A stretch of 64,000 nt of DNA from Gemmatimonadota bacterium (lineage in GTDB: Bacteria > Gemmatimonadota > Gemmatimonadetes > Longimicrobiales > Gaopeijiaceae): assembly GCA_029262115.1 (NCBI GenBank), contig JAJCZZ010000082.1:1-64000 (forward strand), written 5' to 3'. Positions 42,370 to 56,352 of the stretch are shown here, piece by piece; positions within the stretch are counted from its first letter, which is position 1, and each line of letters begins with the position of its first letter. Position numbers and translations under genes: made by a program. The notes under the pieces are model-generated. The model did no database searches. It saw only the letters and a list, made by a program, of their open reading frames with translations, and was not told where the DNA came from.

Positions 42370-44280
42370 ATGGTCCACTCCTCCGAATCCCCTCCCGGCA
42401 CCTACCTACCCACCGGCTGGCGCATCGTCGGACAGGGGGCTGAACGGCTCGCCGAGCGTCTGGCGTCCGGTGGAGCAGATGGACTCGTGCCCGGTGAGGC
42501 CGAGCAGGCGCTGTACGGGGTGCAGTGCACTTTCGACCCGGTTACCCGCGGGCGGCCGACCGTGGAGCGGGTGCTGGACGCCGTTACTGAACAGATCCGC
42601 GCGGTCGATTCGGACTGTCCGCGCCTCGTTCGAGATCAACCGGTAGAGCGGCCGTCCTCCAGATTCAGCGGCCTCAGGTTCGAGCAATTTTCCGACGCGG
42701 GTCGTGAGTGGATCGGAGAGCTGATTTGGCGCGCTGTTCATCCTGTGGTTGCCGGCGCTCCGATCACCAGCCATCTGGTCATTGAGGAGACCTCGACGTT
42801 TACCCGTCTGACGGTTCGTGTGACGGCGGACCACGGGCTGTCGAGCGTCAGGGGATATGTCGGTGCGGGCCAGGCGCAGCCGGCTTTTCTCCGTGCTCTT
42901 CGACCGGACCTCACCCCCATCTGGTTGGGCGGCCCGCTCAAAGCCCACGTCATCCAGAGGCACGGCGTTCTGGACCTCGTTCACTCGATCCTCGCCGCCA
43001 GCAACCGGGATGTCCCGGTGGCCGTGCTCGCCCCGTTGGAAGCCGGGGGATTCGTCGTGGATCCGGAGGATCTCGCCTGGGACCTGCTGGGTCGGGCGCG
43101 CCTCTACGTCCTGACGGAGCATCGCCAGACGTTCGATCTCAGCGACGTGGTCGGGGACCGTCGTATGTCGTGCTACTGGGGCGCTGTCCGTTGTTACTTC
43201 CCGGGCTGGAGTCGCCACGACGACCCGTACGAGCATCCTCTGCTTGTCGGTGAGCGGCTGGCCGACCCGATCCTGCGAGCGACGTGGTTGGGGGAGGTGG
43301 GCCTCCCGATGGGCCGTCGGATCGAGTTCCCCTCGTCGGTGCGGGAACGTCGCCCTCCGCCTGACATCGAAGTCCGGACGAGCGAGTCGACTGGAGCTGC
43401 CGCCGATCTCCCGAACGACCGCGACGGTTCGGGCGGCCCCGACGTTCCGAACGGGCTGGGCGTCCGCGACCGGTCAGGTGACGCCGCCCCGATCTCCTTG
43501 GCGGAGCCGGAGGGCGACGTGGCTCCCACGGTCGATCGAGAGGATAGCGCGGTCGACCGGACCGACCCCGCTCGAGCGGCGCTGTCGCTGTCTCTGGACG
43601 AGTTGCTCCGGGAAGTGCGCGCGCTCCGATCCTCGGTAGGAGGGCTGACCGATGAGGTGGAGCGCCTGCGGACAATATCTTCCGTGCGTTCATCAAGCAC
43701 GAACGCGATCGAGCGCCGTTTGGGTCGGCTCGAGGACATTCTCGGGCACGTCTTTCCTGATGGCAGTCCGTCCTCCGGCCCCGAAGAGGAGGCCGAGGCC
43801 GGTACGTCGCCGCCCGACGAATCGTCGGATGATGGGCGTACAACGCTCCCGCAGGTCGTGAATGATTCGGCCGAATCTCACGCCGACACGCTCGTCTTCC
43901 TGGACTCCGCGCACCATTCCGCCGCGGAGAGCCCCTATGAGGACCCTGAACGGGTGCGGGCGATTCTGGACGCGATGGCGCGGGTCGCACGCCGTCGCCG
44001 CGACGGCGTGCTTGGGACGTCGCTTCGAGAAGCGTTTGGGGACCTCGGGATCGACTACCGATCTGGGATCGCCCGCTCGACGCCGGCGAGGCTTCGTGAG
44101 CAGTATCGCTTTGCCGCCCCGAACGGCGACTACGTGGAGGCAGAGGAGCACATCGTGCTGGGAAACACCTACGATCCTCGCAGGTGTCTCAGGCTCTACT
44201 TCTCCTCGCGCGTGCCGAACGAGCCCCGCTTCGTTATCGGGCATGTCGGGCGGCACTTCGAGGTTCGGTCCTCGACCTGA
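42370..44280 (+). CDS. Large multidomain protein of unknown function, candidate defence or nucleic-acid protein
   Basis: I do not recognise this 636-residue protein. Residues 1-325 form an alpha/beta region with a conserved-looking core (PVAVLAPLEAGGFVVDPEDLAWDLLG, then the aromatic CYWGAVRCYFPGWSRHDDPYEHPL). Residues about 326-400 are a Pro/Asp-rich linker. Residues 400-460 form a coiled coil (SLDELLREVRALRSSVGGL, IERRLGRLEDILGHVF). Residues 520-636 are a compact beta-rich domain with LREQYRFAAPNGDYVEAEEHIVLGN, CLRLYF and the ending RFVIGHVGRHFE. No signal peptide or membrane helix. The start lacks a strong ribosome site. It is followed 56 bases later by a SEC-C protein. Confidence 0.75.
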   Translation: MVHSSESPPGTYLPTGWRIVGQGAERLAERLASGGADGLVPGEAEQALYGVQCTFDPVTRGRPTVERVLDAVTEQIRAVDSDCPRLVRDQPVERPSSRFSGLRFEQFSDAGREWIGELIWRAVHPVVAGAPITSHLVIEETSTFTRLTVRVTADHGLSSVRGYVGAGQAQPAFLRALRPDLTPIWLGGPLKAHVIQRHGVLDLVHSILAASNRDVPVAVLAPLEAGGFVVDPEDLAWDLLGRARLYVLTEHRQTFDLSDVVGDRRMSCYWGAVRCYFPGWSRHDDPYEHPLLVGERLADPILRATWLGEVGLPMGRRIEFPSSVRERRPPPDIEVRTSESTGAAADLPNDRDGSGGPDVPNGLGVRDRSGDAAPISLAEPEGDVAPTVDREDSAVDRTDPARAALSLSLDELLREVRALRSSVGGLTDEVERLRTISSVRSSSTNAIERRLGRLEDILGHVFPDGSPSSGPEEEAEAGTSPPDESSDDGRTTLPQVVNDSAESHADTLVFLDSAHHSAAESPYEDPERVRAILDAMARVARRRRDGVLGTSLREAFGDLGIDYRSGIARSTPARLREQYRFAAPNGDYVEAEEHIVLGNTYDPRRCLRLYFSSRVPNEPRFVIGHVGRHFEVRSST

Positions 44281-44336
44281 TGCGCCTGCTTGGGAACGCC
44301 AGTGGACAGGCCACCCGGTCCGCGTAGTTTTCGCCG

Positions 44337-45791
44337 ATGAGCACCCGACGAAACGATCCGTGTCCCTGCGGAAGTGGGAAGAAGTACAAGCAGTGCCACG
44401 GAAAGCCCACCCGGACGCAGCTCTCATCGGAGGAGTCCGCGTGGCGCCGGCTGCGGGACGCCCTGGACGGCTACCCGACGATGATGCTTCGCTTCGTACG
44501 AGATGTTTACGGGCCGTGGGTCGTCCACGAGGCGTGGGCCGAGTTCACCTTGTGGGAGGATGAAGAGGCCGGGTTCGATCCCGACTCCGATCATCTCCAG
44601 GTCTTCATGCCCTGGTTCTTCCATCGATGGTCACCCGACCCCCACGAGACCAACATCGAGGACGCCTTTTTGCATGGGCGATGTCCCACGAGCGTGCTGC
44701 TCGAACGCAAGGGGAGTCGGCTGCAGCCGGTGTTGAGGGCCTATTTCGAGGCGTGTCTCACGACGCCCTTCAGCTTCCACGAGATCGTACGCGCCGACAC
44801 CGGACACGGGTTTCTTGCCCGAGACGTGTTCACCCTTGACGGCCACGAGGTCCTGGACCGCAGCGCATCCCGCACGTTGCAACCCGGAGATATCTTCTTC
44901 GGCCAAGTCGTCTCCTCGGGCGGGATCACCTTGATGGAGGCGTGCTCACCACACGCGATGCTGCCCCGCGAGAAGGTCGCACTCATCGACCTTCGGGAGT
45001 CCATTGCTCGGGGCGGACCTCCGCCTTCTGCCGAGATGCTCCTGGACTGGGACGCCGAATTGCGGGAGGAATACCTGGAATGGGTGAAGGCGCTAACGAA
45101 CCCGCCGCCTCCGCGCCTCCACAACACCGACGGAGAGCCCATCGCCTTCCACCGTCTCCGCTTTGAGGTCCCTTCGGCGCAGGGAGCGTTCGACGTGCTG
45201 TATCACCTGACATACGACGACTCTGAGATCGACCTGCTGGAGTCCGCGGAGCGCGACGCCCAGGGACGGTTGCAACGCGTGTCGTTCCCCTGGATTGCGG
45301 CGGGCAACGCAATACACGCGAGTTGGGACAGTACGGCCCTCGGCCACATCGAGATCGACGGCCACCGCCTGGAGGCGAACGTCAACTCCGCGGGACGCGC
45401 CGCGCGGTTGAAGGAGATCGTGGAGTCCAGTTACCCGGACGCCCGGCACGTGAGCACGGACGTGGAAACGGTCGAGGAGGCGAGGGCCAGGAGCAGGCAC
45501 AGTGCTGGCGACCAGCCTCCTGAAGATCCAGATGCCGCCGCCCTCGCCTCGCATCCGGAGGTGTTGGATCGCGTGCGTGCGATGTCGGCGGCCCACTACG
45601 AGGGGTGGGTCCACCAGGAAATTCCCGCCCTCGGTGGCCTCTCGCCGATGGAGGCGATCGAGGAGATGGGTGGACGTGAGAAGGTCGAAGCACTCATCGC
45701 GCAGATCGAACGCGACGGCCGACGCATGGTTCCACCACTCGACGTGGCCGTAATCCAGAGAATGCGTGAGCGGCTCGGGTTGGTGGACTGA
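44337..45791 (+). CDS. SEC-C motif protein with C-terminal MbcA/ParS-like segment
   Basis: A 484-residue cytosolic protein. Residues 6-22 (NDPCPCGSGKKYKQCHG) are a complete SEC-C zinc site of the C-x-C-x8-CH kind, placed at the N-terminus, unlike in SecA. A long central region (about 30-400) has no familiar domain; it contains FMPWFFHRWSPDPHETN and LLERKGSRLQPVLRAYFEA. The C-terminus (IPALGGLSPMEAIEEMGGREKVEALIAQIE) resembles the DUF2384/MbcA-type antitoxin tail found on other SEC-C proteins. SEC-C proteins are frequent in defence islands. It lies between the 636-residue protein and a MazEF pair. Confidence 0.8.
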   Translation: MSTRRNDPCPCGSGKKYKQCHGKPTRTQLSSEESAWRRLRDALDGYPTMMLRFVRDVYGPWVVHEAWAEFTLWEDEEAGFDPDSDHLQVFMPWFFHRWSPDPHETNIEDAFLHGRCPTSVLLERKGSRLQPVLRAYFEACLTTPFSFHEIVRADTGHGFLARDVFTLDGHEVLDRSASRTLQPGDIFFGQVVSSGGITLMEACSPHAMLPREKVALIDLRESIARGGPPPSAEMLLDWDAELREEYLEWVKALTNPPPPRLHNTDGEPIAFHRLRFEVPSAQGAFDVLYHLTYDDSEIDLLESAERDAQGRLQRVSFPWIAAGNAIHASWDSTALGHIEIDGHRLEANVNSAGRAARLKEIVESSYPDARHVSTDVETVEEARARSRHSAGDQPPEDPDAAALASHPEVLDRVRAMSAAHYEGWVHQEIPALGGLSPMEAIEEMGGREKVEALIAQIERDGRRMVPPLDVAVIQRMRERLGLVD

Positions 45792-45858
45792 GGGCAGAGG
45801 GTGTTTCGGGCGAAATCGACGTCGTAGGACTGCGGGGGATTGTGGAGGGATTGTGGGG

Positions 45859-45875
45859 GTAAGGAACCTCCTTAC
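45859..45875. promoter_or_regulatory. Candidate MazE operator
   Basis: GTAAGGA (45859-45865), ACC, TCCTTAC (45869-45875) is a perfect 7-bp inverted repeat overlapping a TACATT -10-like hexamer (45873-45878). Just upstream, GGGATTGTGG occurs twice in tandem (45836-45845 and 45847-45856). Both features lie directly ahead of the antitoxin gene and fit autorepression by an AbrB-type antitoxin. Confidence 0.5.
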
Positions 45876-45904
45876 ATTGAATCACACACTTGGAGGTCAA
45901 CCCG

Positions 45905-46120
45905 ATGATCACGAGCAAGCTCACCACGAAGTCCCAGACCACCATTCCCCAGCCGGTGCGCGTGGCCCTCGGTCTTACACCCGGTGACGAGGTGGTCTAC
46001 GAGATCGAGGGCGACCGGGTTGTCTTACGCAAGGCCGGCTCAAGGGCTGCGGATGACCCTTTCGCGACTTTCGTGGAGTGGCACGGCGAGGCCGATAGGA
46101 ACGCGTATGCGGGCCTTTGA
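45905..46120 (+). CDS. AbrB/MazE-family antitoxin
   Basis: A 71-residue swapped-hairpin antitoxin from ATG 45905, with GGAGGT 7 bases upstream. The fold is readable as SKLTTKSQTTIPQPVRVALGLTPGDEVVYEIEGDRVVLRK. The C-terminal part (DDPFATFVEWHGEADRNAY) would wrap the toxin. It overlaps the toxin gene by 14 bases. AbrB-type antitoxins repress their own operon, consistent with the inverted repeat upstream. Confidence 0.88.
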   Translation: MITSKLTTKSQTTIPQPVRVALGLTPGDEVVYEIEGDRVVLRKAGSRAADDPFATFVEWHGEADRNAYAGL

Positions 46121-46475
46121 ACAGGGGGACGTAGTACGCGTACCTTTTCCCTACACGGATCGGAACACCCGCCAGCACCGACCTGCACTGGTTGTGACCC
46201 ATGGTGGGATTGGACAGGCGGCAGCGTTCCTGTGGGTGGTCATGATCACGAGTGCAGAGAACCGACCGTGGCCCGGCGACGTCCCTCTCGTGGAGGACCA
46301 CGAGGCGGCCGGCCTTCCCGTTCCGTCGGTCGTGCGCACTGCTAAGATCGCGACGATCGAGGCTCGACATGCTGACAGACTCGGCCTCCTGTCGCCAGGC
46401 CAGTGGTCTCAGGTCGAGGGCGCCCTGGTGGGCCACCTCGGATTTTTCCCGGGCTCTGACGCGACGGCACGGTAA
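46107..46475 (+). CDS. PemK/MazF-family toxin
   Basis: A 122-residue type II toxin from ATG 46107, overlapping the antitoxin end by 14 bases. GDVVRVPFPYTDRNTRQHRPALVV is the diagnostic MazF/PemK first strand set with the conserved Arg/Pro-Tyr residues, followed by VMITSAENRPWPGDVPL and KIATIEA. Family members cut RNA at short sequences. The target sequence cannot be predicted. It converges on the ADOP gene with a 5-base gap. Confidence 0.9.
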   Translation: MRAFEQGDVVRVPFPYTDRNTRQHRPALVVTHGGIGQAAAFLWVVMITSAENRPWPGDVPLVEDHEAAGLPVPSVVRTAKIATIEARHADRLGLLSPGQWSQVEGALVGHLGFFPGSDATAR

Positions 46476-50908: not shown

Positions 50909-51301
50909 CTACGTCCAGTCCGGAGCCGGAAATCCCAACGCCGACGCGATCTCCTGCTGTGCTGCATCGAGCGTGACGAAATCCAGGTCCGCGGGCGACT
51001 CGGCGAGGTAGAGGGCGGTCGCGAGGTGCCACAGGTCGGCACCGCGGACGTATCCGGCCGCAAGCACCCGGTCGATCTCGGCTGAGAGCCGACGGTCCGG
51101 GAGGACCCAGCTCATACCGTCGACGGGGGTCCTGCCGCCCCTTACACCCTCCCGCTTCAGCGCCGACGCGAACTCGGCTTCCAGGAGGTTCGAGGAGGCG
51201 AGCAGGTCGTATCCGTCGAGTCTGTCGGCCAGCCGCTTCGCCCTGGGCTCACCGAACGCCACGGCGACGAGGCACGACGTATCGACGTATGCGACCTTCA
51301 C
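50909..51301 (-). CDS. PIN-domain toxin (VapC-like)
   Basis: A 130-residue PIN nuclease. Acidic positions are seen in VAYVDTSCLVAVAF, NLLEAEFASAL, ADLWHLATAL and DLDFVTLD, the four-residue metal site of VapC toxins. The gene begins inside the antitoxin stop (ATGA), so the pair is translationally coupled. VapC toxins cut tRNA or rRNA; the target is unknown. Confidence 0.9.
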   Translation of the reverse strand: MKVAYVDTSCLVAVAFGEPRAKRLADRLDGYDLLASSNLLEAEFASALKREGVRGGRTPVDGMSWVLPDRRLSAEIDRVLAAGYVRGADLWHLATALYLAESPADLDFVTLDAAQQEIASALGFPAPDWT

Positions 51302-51576
51302 CCGTTACGGTCGTCGAGGAAGCGGGTGAGTGCTCCGGGGCGCCGCTCCACTTGCACCATCGGCGAAGCGGGGGCCTCCGGAGCCACAAGGACGCCGCGA
51401 GAGCGCAGCCACTCCACGCGAGCCCGCATGCCGCCGGAGCGGTCCAGCGGGCGGATTTCGGCCACGGGCTCGCCCTGGTATGTCACAGTCACGGTCCGTC
51501 CCTCACGAACGCGGCGGAGGAGCTCGGAAAAACGGGCTTTCGCTTGGTAGGTCGAGAATGTGTCGTCAGGGGCCAT
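51298..51576 (-). CDS. Phd/YefM-family antitoxin
   Basis: A 92-residue antitoxin. FSTYQAKARFSELLRRVREGRTVTVTYQGEPVAEI is the Phd/YefM DNA-binding and dimerisation fold. The C-terminal tail (EAPASPMVQVERRPGALTRFLDDR) would bind the toxin. It is the first gene of the pair. The ATG lacks a clear ribosome site and follows a T-rich tract; an inverted repeat sits 22 bases upstream. Confidence 0.88.
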   Translation of the reverse strand: MAPDDTFSTYQAKARFSELLRRVREGRTVTVTYQGEPVAEIRPLDRSGGMRARVEWLRSRGVLVAPEAPASPMVQVERRPGALTRFLDDRNG

Positions 51577-53830: not shown

Positions 53831-54970
53831 ATGCAGATCGAGCAGCGGGCCTGGACGGACGATGGTTGGTTCGTAACGAGGGCGATGGACTCCCTCGTTG
53901 ATCCGGATCTGGTTCTGGTGTTCGGGGCCACGTCCTTCTTCGATCAGTCGGTCGCCCTCGAGGCTCTCCAGGCAAGCTACCCGGGTGCGCCGCTCGTCGG
54001 CTGCTCCACGGCTGGCGAGATTCGGGAAACGGTGGTCACCGTCGACTCCGCTGTCGCGACGGCTGTCAGCTTCCGTGACGTCGATGTCAAGATCGAGACG
54101 GAGGTGCTACCTGACGCGGCCTCGAGCCATACGGTCGGGGCCCGCCTCGGGGCCCGCTTTACCGACGCTCCTCCGGACCACGTGTTGCTCCTGTCTCCAG
54201 GTGTCGACGTCAACGGCTCCGACCTGGTACGGGGCTTCACGGCGGCACTTCCGCCGGGGATACTCGTGACGGGCGGCCTGGCCGGAGACGGCGACCGCTT
54301 CCTCAGCACCCGCCTCCTCGCCCACGGAGAGGTGACGGAGAGGACGGTGGTTGCGGTGGCTTTGAGCGGGTCCGGCCTCAAGGTGGGATTCGGATCGATG
54401 GCGGGTTGGGACGACTTCGGGCCCGACCGCCTCATCACGCGTTCGGACGGCAACGTGCTCTACGAACTCGACGGAGAGCCCGCGCTCGATCTATACCGGC
54501 GGTACCTTGGTCCCCACGCGGAACGGCTCCCGGCCAGCGGGCTCCTCTTCCCGCTGAGCGTCGAGGTCACGGAGACGGGCCAGCGGGTAATCCGCACGAT
54601 CCTGGGAATCGATGCCGAGGCTGGAAGCGTCATCCTGGCCGGTGACGTGACCACGGGGAGCCACGCCCGACTCATGAAGGCCAACGTCGACCGTCTCGTC
54701 GACGGGGCGGCTGACGCGGCCCACCGGTGTTCGTCCGTCGATGGGCTCGACGCCGCGGAATTCGCCTTACTGGTGAGTTGCGTGGGCAGGCGGCTGATAC
54801 TGAAGCAACGGACCGAAGAAGAAGTGGAAGCCGTCCAGGAGGCTCTCGGGCCTCAGGCGGTGCTCGCCGGCTTCTATTCCTACGGTGAGATATCTCCGGT
54901 GACCCCCGAAGCGCGCTGCGAGCTGCACAACCAGACGATGACGATCACGACCTTTTCGGAGTCGTCGTGA
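53831..54970 (+). CDS. FIST-domain sensor protein
   Basis: A 379-residue protein made of FIST_N (LVLVFGATSFFDQSVALEAL, PLVGCSTAGEI, VTGGLAGDGDRF) and FIST_C (HAERLPASGLLFPLSVEV and the end GFYSYGEISPV...CELHNQTMTITTF). FIST domains bind small ligands, proposed to include amino acids, and signal to partner proteins. Its stop overlaps the GTG start of the PAS histidine kinase, so the ligand-binding and kinase parts of one sensory system appear split into coupled genes. Confidence 0.9.
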   Translation: MQIEQRAWTDDGWFVTRAMDSLVDPDLVLVFGATSFFDQSVALEALQASYPGAPLVGCSTAGEIRETVVTVDSAVATAVSFRDVDVKIETEVLPDAASSHTVGARLGARFTDAPPDHVLLLSPGVDVNGSDLVRGFTAALPPGILVTGGLAGDGDRFLSTRLLAHGEVTERTVVAVALSGSGLKVGFGSMAGWDDFGPDRLITRSDGNVLYELDGEPALDLYRRYLGPHAERLPASGLLFPLSVEVTETGQRVIRTILGIDAEAGSVILAGDVTTGSHARLMKANVDRLVDGAADAAHRCSSVDGLDAAEFALLVSCVGRRLILKQRTEEEVEAVQEALGPQAVLAGFYSYGEISPVTPEARCELHNQTMTITTFSESS

Positions 54971-56352
54971 CACGCCACAAACTCCTCCGGCGTCAGATTC
55001 GGCGCCATCTCCCCGTCATGGAGCACGGTCGGTCCGAACTTCAGCCGCTGCTGGACGCTATCGACGCGGCGTATCAGCATGCCGATGATGATCGGGCCAT
55101 GCTGGAGCATTCGCTCGACATCATGTCACAGGAGTTGCAGGAGCGGTACAGCAAGCTGCTGGCCGAAGAGGCGCGTACTCGAACGCTGGCGGCAAACCGC
55201 GAGTTGACCGCGATCGTCGAACGCGCCGGAGTGGGCCTCTGCGTGAGCGACATGGGCGGACGCATCGTGCAGGCGAACCCCGCCTTCTGCGAGTTCATGG
55301 GCATCCCGGAGAAGGACCTCCTCGGCCGCCCCACCGACGCGCTTTCACCCGCGGAGGAAGCCCCTCGCACCCACGAAGCGGTTCGGCAGCTCATGGCGGA
55401 GGACGAGGTGAGCGTGGAGGTGGAGAGGCGGTTCCTCCACGCCGACGGGGGGGAACTCACCGGGCGACTGACGCTCACCCTCGTGCGCTCCGAAGGCGGC
55501 GACCCGCTCAACGTCATGGGTGTGGTTCAGGATATCACGTCTCAGAAACGTTTGGAGCGGGAGCTTCTCGAGAAAGAGGAGCAACTTCGCCAGAGCCTGA
55601 AGATGGAAGCGGTGGGACGGCTGGCCGGCGGTATTGCCCACGACTTCAACAACCTACTCACGGTCATCAGCGCCCGGACCGAGCTCCTTCGGTCGGTGTT
55701 GGAGGAATCCCACCCTGGTTGGGAGGACGTGGAGGAGATCCATTCCGCGGCCCGGAGGGCAGCCGAGTTGACGGGCCAGCTCCTGGCGTTCTCCCGGAGA
55801 CAGGTTCTCGCTCCCGAAACGCTCGACCTGGATCACGTCCTATCCGGCTTCCTCCCGTTCCTGTCGAGCCTCATCGGGGACGGCATCGAGGTCGCTGTCG
55901 ACGTGGAAGACGATCTCTCGCCCGTTCACACGGACGCGGGCCAACTCCAGCAGGTGCTCATGAACCTCGCCGTGAACGCACGGGACGCCATGCCGGGTGG
56001 CGGGCAGATCGAGATCACGGCCTGCTGCGTCGACTTCGAAGGAACGGCCGACCTGCCGCCCGGGCGCTACGTGCGGCTCCGCATGGTCGACAACGGCGTG
56101 GGAATGTCGGAGGCCGTCCTGGCTCGTGTCCTGGAGCCGTTCTACACGACAAAGGAGCCGGGAAAGGGCACCGGGCTGGGCCTGGCCATGGTTCACGGGA
56201 TCGTGCGCCAATCCGGGGGCGATGTGGTCATCGAGAGCACCGAGGGAGAGGGGACCGCTGTGTCCGTCTATCTCCCGGGGGTGGCGCCCGGGGGCTCAGG
56301 GCGGTCCGCGCCGGCCGACGCCGGCCGCGGCGCGGCCGAGCCCCCGCGGTGA
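54967..56352 (+). CDS. PAS-domain sensor histidine kinase
   Basis: A cytosolic histidine kinase of 461 residues from GTG 54967. Residues 15-70 form a helical segment (LEHSLDIMSQELQERYSKLL). A PAS domain spans about 80-195 (GVGLCVSDMGGRIVQANPAF, then NVMGVVQDITSQKRLEREL). The kinase core has H-box GGIAHDFNNLLTVISA, N-box NLAVNARDAMPGG, DNGVGM and GKGTGLGLAMVHGIV. There is no receiver domain. Coupling to FIST suggests that FIST ligand occupancy controls this kinase. No response regulator is in the window. Confidence 0.93.
   Translation: MTRHKLLRRQIRRHLPVMEHGRSELQPLLDAIDAAYQHADDDRAMLEHSLDIMSQELQERYSKLLAEEARTRTLAANRELTAIVERAGVGLCVSDMGGRIVQANPAFCEFMGIPEKDLLGRPTDALSPAEEAPRTHEAVRQLMAEDEVSVEVERRFLHADGGELTGRLTLTLVRSEGGDPLNVMGVVQDITSQKRLERELLEKEEQLRQSLKMEAVGRLAGGIAHDFNNLLTVISARTELLRSVLEESHPGWEDVEEIHSAARRAAELTGQLLAFSRRQVLAPETLDLDHVLSGFLPFLSSLIGDGIEVAVDVEDDLSPVHTDAGQLQQVLMNLAVNARDAMPGGGQIEITACCVDFEGTADLPPGRYVRLRMVDNGVGMSEAVLARVLEPFYTTKEPGKGTGLGLAMVHGIVRQSGGDVVIESTEGEGTAVSVYLPGVAPGGSGRSAPADAGRGAAEPPR

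Follow-up and report, generated by a model that had tools for sequence, protein, structure and literature searches.

A probable divergent member of the candidate anti-phage family HEC-07 in a Gemmatimonadota genome, with a C-terminal domain that recurs in other proteins

Is a long open reading frame without family annotation a real gene, and if so, what could its product be doing? The question is raised by one such frame in the window (the whole stretch of 64 000 nucleotides that was analysed); its 636-residue product is called P0001 below, and the features discussed are collected in Table 1. The length of the frame and its ATG start were confirmed. Relatives of P0001 in related genomes could be aligned with it over the entire length (identity 55, 56 and 46%), and in comparison with these relatives pN was 0.31-0.40 while pS was 0.64-0.66. 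With end-to-end relatives present and non-synonymous differences far below synonymous ones, the frame is a genuine gene, intact and selectively constrained; an open reading frame arising by chance in GC-rich DNA is out of consideration.

Conservation is uneven along the protein. Identity to one of the relatives (locus L003) was 59% in residues 44-305, 36% in residues 306-499 (linker and coil) and 72% in residues 500-636, the highest value of all parts of P0001; the initial annotation, made from the letters of the sequence, had already remarked on a conserved look of the C-terminal domain. The linker (residues 306-399) consists of 12% Pro and 21% Asp plus Glu. When PDB sequence profiles were compared with the P0001 family, nearly all matches were coiled coils, and AlphaFold2 modelled helices at 400-436 and 443-461 in the coiled-coil segment, with low confidence. 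Regional conservation and coiled-coil matches thus give P0001 a layout in which a coiled-coil stalk carries two conserved domains, in agreement with the earlier description of two separate parts joined by a linker and a coiled coil. The motifs that had been quoted are all present: CYWGAVRCYFPGW makes up residues 268-280, and LREQYRF, EEHIVLGN, CLRLYF and RFVIGHVGRHFE all fall within the final 65 residues. The N-terminal (N) domain also carries the motifs DPxRxxPxxV and TFxLSDxVG....GAxRxYxPG....HPL.

Table 1. Coordinates of the P0001 gene, its parts and its neighbours in the window, and of the related genes in Gemmatimonas
Feature	Position	Strand	Basis
Probable HEC-07 homologue, divergent, P0001, 636 aa	42370..44280	+	ATG start, profile and relative alignments
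N-terminal conserved domain, residues 44-305	42499..43284	+	family alignments A1, A6; HEC-07 match on domain alone
Linker, Pro/Asp/Glu-containing, poorly conserved, residues 306-399	43285..43566	+	composition and conservation
Coiled-coil segment, residues 400-461	43567..43752	+	PDB profile matches; low-confidence model
C-terminal domain, residues 500-636, best conserved part	43867..44277	+	alignments; module common to several proteins
MerR-family regulator, divergent, upstream of P0001 gene	41441..42172	-	Pfam scan
SEC-C protein, MbcA/ParS-like C-terminus, 56 bp downstream of P0001 gene	44337..45791	+	Pfam scan
MazE/PrlF-like antitoxin	45890..46120	+	Pfam scan
MazF/PemK-like toxin	46107..46475	+	Pfam scan
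HEC-07-like gene of Gemmatimonas	L058 9039-10625; L059 9252-10880; L060 8995-10626		loci of genus g74

No family model for P0001 was found in Pfam, NCBIfam or PHROGs, and the initial annotation could name no family; a name can, however, be taken from PADLOC-DB, where P0001 matched HEC-07 (models PDLC04158-PDLC04161, for which the library gives no curated cut-off) with E=4.9e-30. Both domains took part in the match, and each matched when searched alone (N domain, E=2.3e-17; C-terminal domain, or C-domain, E=5.1e-13). The PADLOC model aligns with P0001 over 168-278 and 419-549 of its 553 positions, and a profile made from intermediate HEC-07 members aligns with P0001 over its full length. Iterative profile search over the loci fetched gave ∼34 distinct members with the layout N domain, coil, C-domain. 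In 20 diverse members, residues L208, R213, P216, G241, L257, G271 and R274 of the N domain, as well as L533, H594 and G598 of the C-domain, are invariant or nearly so. The same order of domains and the profile matches of both make P0001 very probably a divergent member of HEC-07, a candidate anti-phage family. It differs from members outside its close clade, to which it is only ∼16-26% identical; the first ∼165 positions of the HEC-07 profile have no match in P0001, and its linker is longer. An unannotated protein is thereby placed in a candidate defence family, and two domains that have no model in Pfam or NCBIfam are defined.

The designation HEC stands for Hma-embedded candidate, a gene nominated as a defence gene from its position inside Hma loci; antiviral activity was shown for several HECs, HEC-06 being the only one named (2026 paper, PMC12988326). 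Our literature search returned no paper describing HEC-07 and no anti-phage experiment on it. Differing in position from these nominees, the P0001 gene is not in an Hma locus, and there are no helicase, methylase or ATPase genes beside it; assignment to HEC-07 by profile does not depend on this context. It is the sole locus of the family in the window's own genome. Viral contigs yielded no relative when queried with P0001, with A2 or with any of four distant members, and no match to the family was seen in a phage collection.

The SEC-C and MazE/MazF-like genes do follow the P0001 gene, as had been said, and from these neighbours a defence island had been argued. One could go further and take the P0001 gene as the first cistron of a compound defence system with SEC-C and MazEF (42370-46475): the four genes share a strand, the gaps between them are 56 and 98 bp, followed by an overlap, and SEC-C and toxin-antitoxin genes are frequent in defence loci. 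However, a full-length relative of the SEC-C protein was present in just one of 58 other related genomes (G062), a genome without a P0001 relative, and at this position the rest of the close clade carries different genes. Such a compound system is therefore very improbable, and a single operon with SEC-C and MazEF was dropped for lack of co-conservation. On the other side, the MerR gene was not found in the same number of other related genomes searched (58). As the neighbours are not conserved partners, the argument for an island is weak; no tRNA, composition shift or boundary repeats were seen in the window, and the surroundings of the P0001 gene look like ordinary chromosome. The SEC-C protein itself (484 aa) combines an N-terminal SEC-C zinc motif with the C-terminal toxin-binding domain of MbcA/ParS/Xre antitoxins (E=1.3e-5, over the Pfam cut-off); no RES-type toxin was seen beside its gene.

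In a tree of 28 members P0001 falls into a clade of seven (support 100/98). The clade is patchy: it was found in 5 of 98 related genomes, the window's own included, and also in a genome of another family (G360). The gene directly after the homologue is SEC-C in the window, an HNH_2 nuclease ∼9 bp on in G019, an EVE domain gene in G050, a DUF1186-like gene (just below the Pfam cut-off) in G005, an ECF sigma factor in G185 and an unknown gene in G360; in G008 the place is taken by converging genes, among them one for a PIN toxin. Thus no neighbour is common to all seven members, and with a different next gene at each locus the P0001 gene appears as a stand-alone unit.

The sister of this clade (support 99/97 in the same tree) is formed by genes of genus g74, which we take to be probably the soil bacterium Gemmatimonas. 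Here the HEC-07-like gene is single-copy in 28 of 30 genomes, and in all three loci read it was placed between dtd and prfC (names assigned by eye from translations). With dN/dS of 0.04-0.14 among six copies, it is under strong purifying selection. Of 35 genera sampled in the taxonomic family of Gemmatimonas, 2 have the gene. Outside Gemmatimonas this family nearly lacks it, the remaining 93 genomes giving a single match; therefore the Gemmatimonas copy was probably gained once and fixed afterwards. It has the same two domains as P0001, at 26% identity; yet it is fixed, single-copy and vertically kept, whereas the window gene is sporadic and placed elsewhere. According to the initial annotation, homologues lying outside defence or mobile regions would speak against a defence role. 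For the sister clade, a core gene outside any island, this is indeed the situation; for some other homologues, found beside defence genes, it is not. A cultured genus with a single-copy sister gene also offers a knockout route to what HEC-07 proteins do.

The other clades are accessory, and their members were found in varied company. A homologue in G158 (L055 9100-19901) adjoins a cluster that resembles Hma, with genes for SNF2 helicase, DUF4391, N6 methylase and ATPase_2/DUF234; this genome carries a core copy too. On a Bradyrhizobium conjugative plasmid the homologue stands beside TrlF and DUF2130, and another homologue is near type I R and HipA. The earlier statement that such proteins occur in defence islands is supported in part, in that some homologues stand by Hma-like, TrlF and restriction genes; the close clade has no shared neighbour, and the sister clade is a core gene. 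Whole or C-domain matches were found in 161 plasmid records, mostly from Pseudomonas, many of the copies lying among unannotated plasmid genes; megaplasmids are among the carriers of distant members. A full-length homologue (L085 11998-13587) lies among DnaE, exonuclease and RepB genes on a Klebsiella plasmid; nine records of Klebsiella plasmids of 110-113 kb carry the homologue, and the one read is IncFIB. These plasmids, we assume, resemble SSU5-type phage-plasmids; their homologue had no match in the phage collection. Across the phylum, an HEC-07-like gene is present in 15 of 138 genera.

Furthermore, the C-domain is not restricted to proteins of this layout. Taken across HEC-07 members, it matched five models of the Menshen protein NsnC (best 7.7e-13). 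The isolated C-domain of P0001 matched NsnC model PDLC03879 with E=8.1e-5; in the whole protein the NsnC match is limited to residues 574-630, against 254-303 of 305 in NsnC. The last ∼57-130 residues of P0001 are homologous to the NsnC C-terminus; no similarity is seen elsewhere along NsnC, and, differing again from Menshen, no OLD-type nuclease/ATPase or DUF262 gene adjoins the P0001 gene in a Pfam scan of the neighbours on both sides. In a Burkholderia protein of 922 residues (L019 9685-12453) the C-domain (789-920) comes after DrmE_C (591-731), the domain PF24957 of DISARM DrmE, while P0001 itself is without DrmE_C in Pfam and has no DISARM genes nearby. The C-domain is also the last part of a plasmid protein of 973 residues, the N-terminus of which has a weak helix-turn-helix (HTH) match. 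In Euzebya it stands nearly alone, beside a MerR gene, with DUF262 and phosphorothioate-dependent restriction genes fairly near. Conversely, the core of the N domain occurs without the C-domain in actinobacterial plasmid proteins. As each was seen apart from the other, the two domains are independent building blocks.

What goes beyond family membership, then, is a C-terminal module common to three systems and a branch of the family fixed as a core gene; neither proves a new mechanism. Through its C-domain, HEC-07 is linked with Menshen and with a DISARM-type protein. One could speculate that sensing is the task of this module, which has no name and makes up the final ∼137 residues, in HEC-07, in Menshen, in a DISARM-type DrmE protein and in others, and that Gemmatimonas, in addition, made one HEC-07 copy a permanent core gene. 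We regard this combined proposal as rather unlikely; if it were true, one bacterial genus would have fixed a protein of innate immunity and passed it on vertically.

Attempts to recognize a fold gave little. PDB sequence profiles compared with each P0001 domain singly produced nothing significant. AlphaFold2 models from a three-sequence alignment were unusable (pLDDT 44 for full-length P0001 and 47.7 for the C-domain alone). A VIA-align search with the poor full-length model covered residues 42-186 only, with the best Z of 7.1 in the range of chance; the matches were the spermine synthase N-domain, DcrB and BamC, as well as RnlA at Z 6.5, and no fold is claimed from them. The order of helices then four strands in the C-domain, together with its H...R(L/I)xF...H ending, gave the impression of an mRNA interferase of RelE/ParE/YoeB type, in which case P0001 would be a self-contained toxin kept inactive by its N-terminal part. 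However, hhalign comparison with YoeB and ParE families of the same phylum gave a probability of <1%, while the positive control, YoeB versus ParE, gave 62% (E=1e-5). The RelE/ParE fold was dropped on this result, and a toxin of this kind is extremely improbable.

As to function, the comparisons leave anti-phage defence as a candidate role of P0001 with a little less than an even chance. An EVE or HNH gene directly follows the homologue in two of the seven close-clade members, and the C-domain is reused at the end of NsnC, of the DrmE_C protein and of the HTH protein. The reading that we prefer, with a probability of about 0.42, is that P0001 forms a stand-alone oligomer through its coiled coil and senses through its C-domain, acting in anti-phage defence or in closely allied surveillance, and that one lineage fixed its copy. 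P0001 would then work alone, as a cytoplasmic oligomer held by the coiled coil; its C-domain would recognise some phage-made or phage-altered feature, and the N domain would carry out or relay the response after this recognition. The target would most likely be nucleic acid or a replication intermediate, nucleic acid being preferred on account of the company of NsnC, DrmE, EVE, HNH and restriction genes. That recognition would belong to the C-domain and response to the N domain is suggested by the architecture alone, and we give this division of roles a low probability.

A fixed single-copy gene with dN/dS of ∼0.1, such as that of Gemmatimonas, is atypical of a defence gene, and it is this core gene that keeps our confidence in defence below one half. 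P0001 could instead serve Gemmatimonadota as a cellular factor outside defence, such as a regulator of the nucleoid, of replication, of repair or of stress; the defence neighbours of distant relatives would then be due to the tendency of accessory genes to cluster, and defence may not be the sole role of HEC-07 as a whole. Apart from the fixed and constrained sister clade, this would agree with two genomes of genus g25 that have flanking genes in common round their copy, with the plasmid copies placed among unannotated genes and with the Klebsiella copy among replication genes. However, presence in 2 of 35 genera of the Gemmatimonas family and in about a tenth of those of the phylum is a poor spread for a housekeeping gene, and the C-domain is common to NsnC and the DrmE_C protein. 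We therefore consider a non-defence factor possible, with chances well short of even, and keep the stand-alone defence or surveillance protein as the preferred reading.

Some further loci were seen in passing. The Burkholderia locus of the DrmE_C protein may be an undescribed defence locus. Its other genes encode a protein of 2164 residues, an E2/ThiF/JAB fusion and an unannotated protein of 385 residues, the start of which resembles by eye a metallo-beta-lactamase fold. In the window, there is an apparent second toxin-antitoxin pair on the minus strand (50909-51576), composed by eye of a PIN-like toxin (50909-51301) and a Phd/YefM-like antitoxin (51298-51576). Two adjacent genes on the plus strand (53831-56352), with products of 379 and 444-461 aa, resemble, again by eye, a FIST-type sensor and a histidine kinase.
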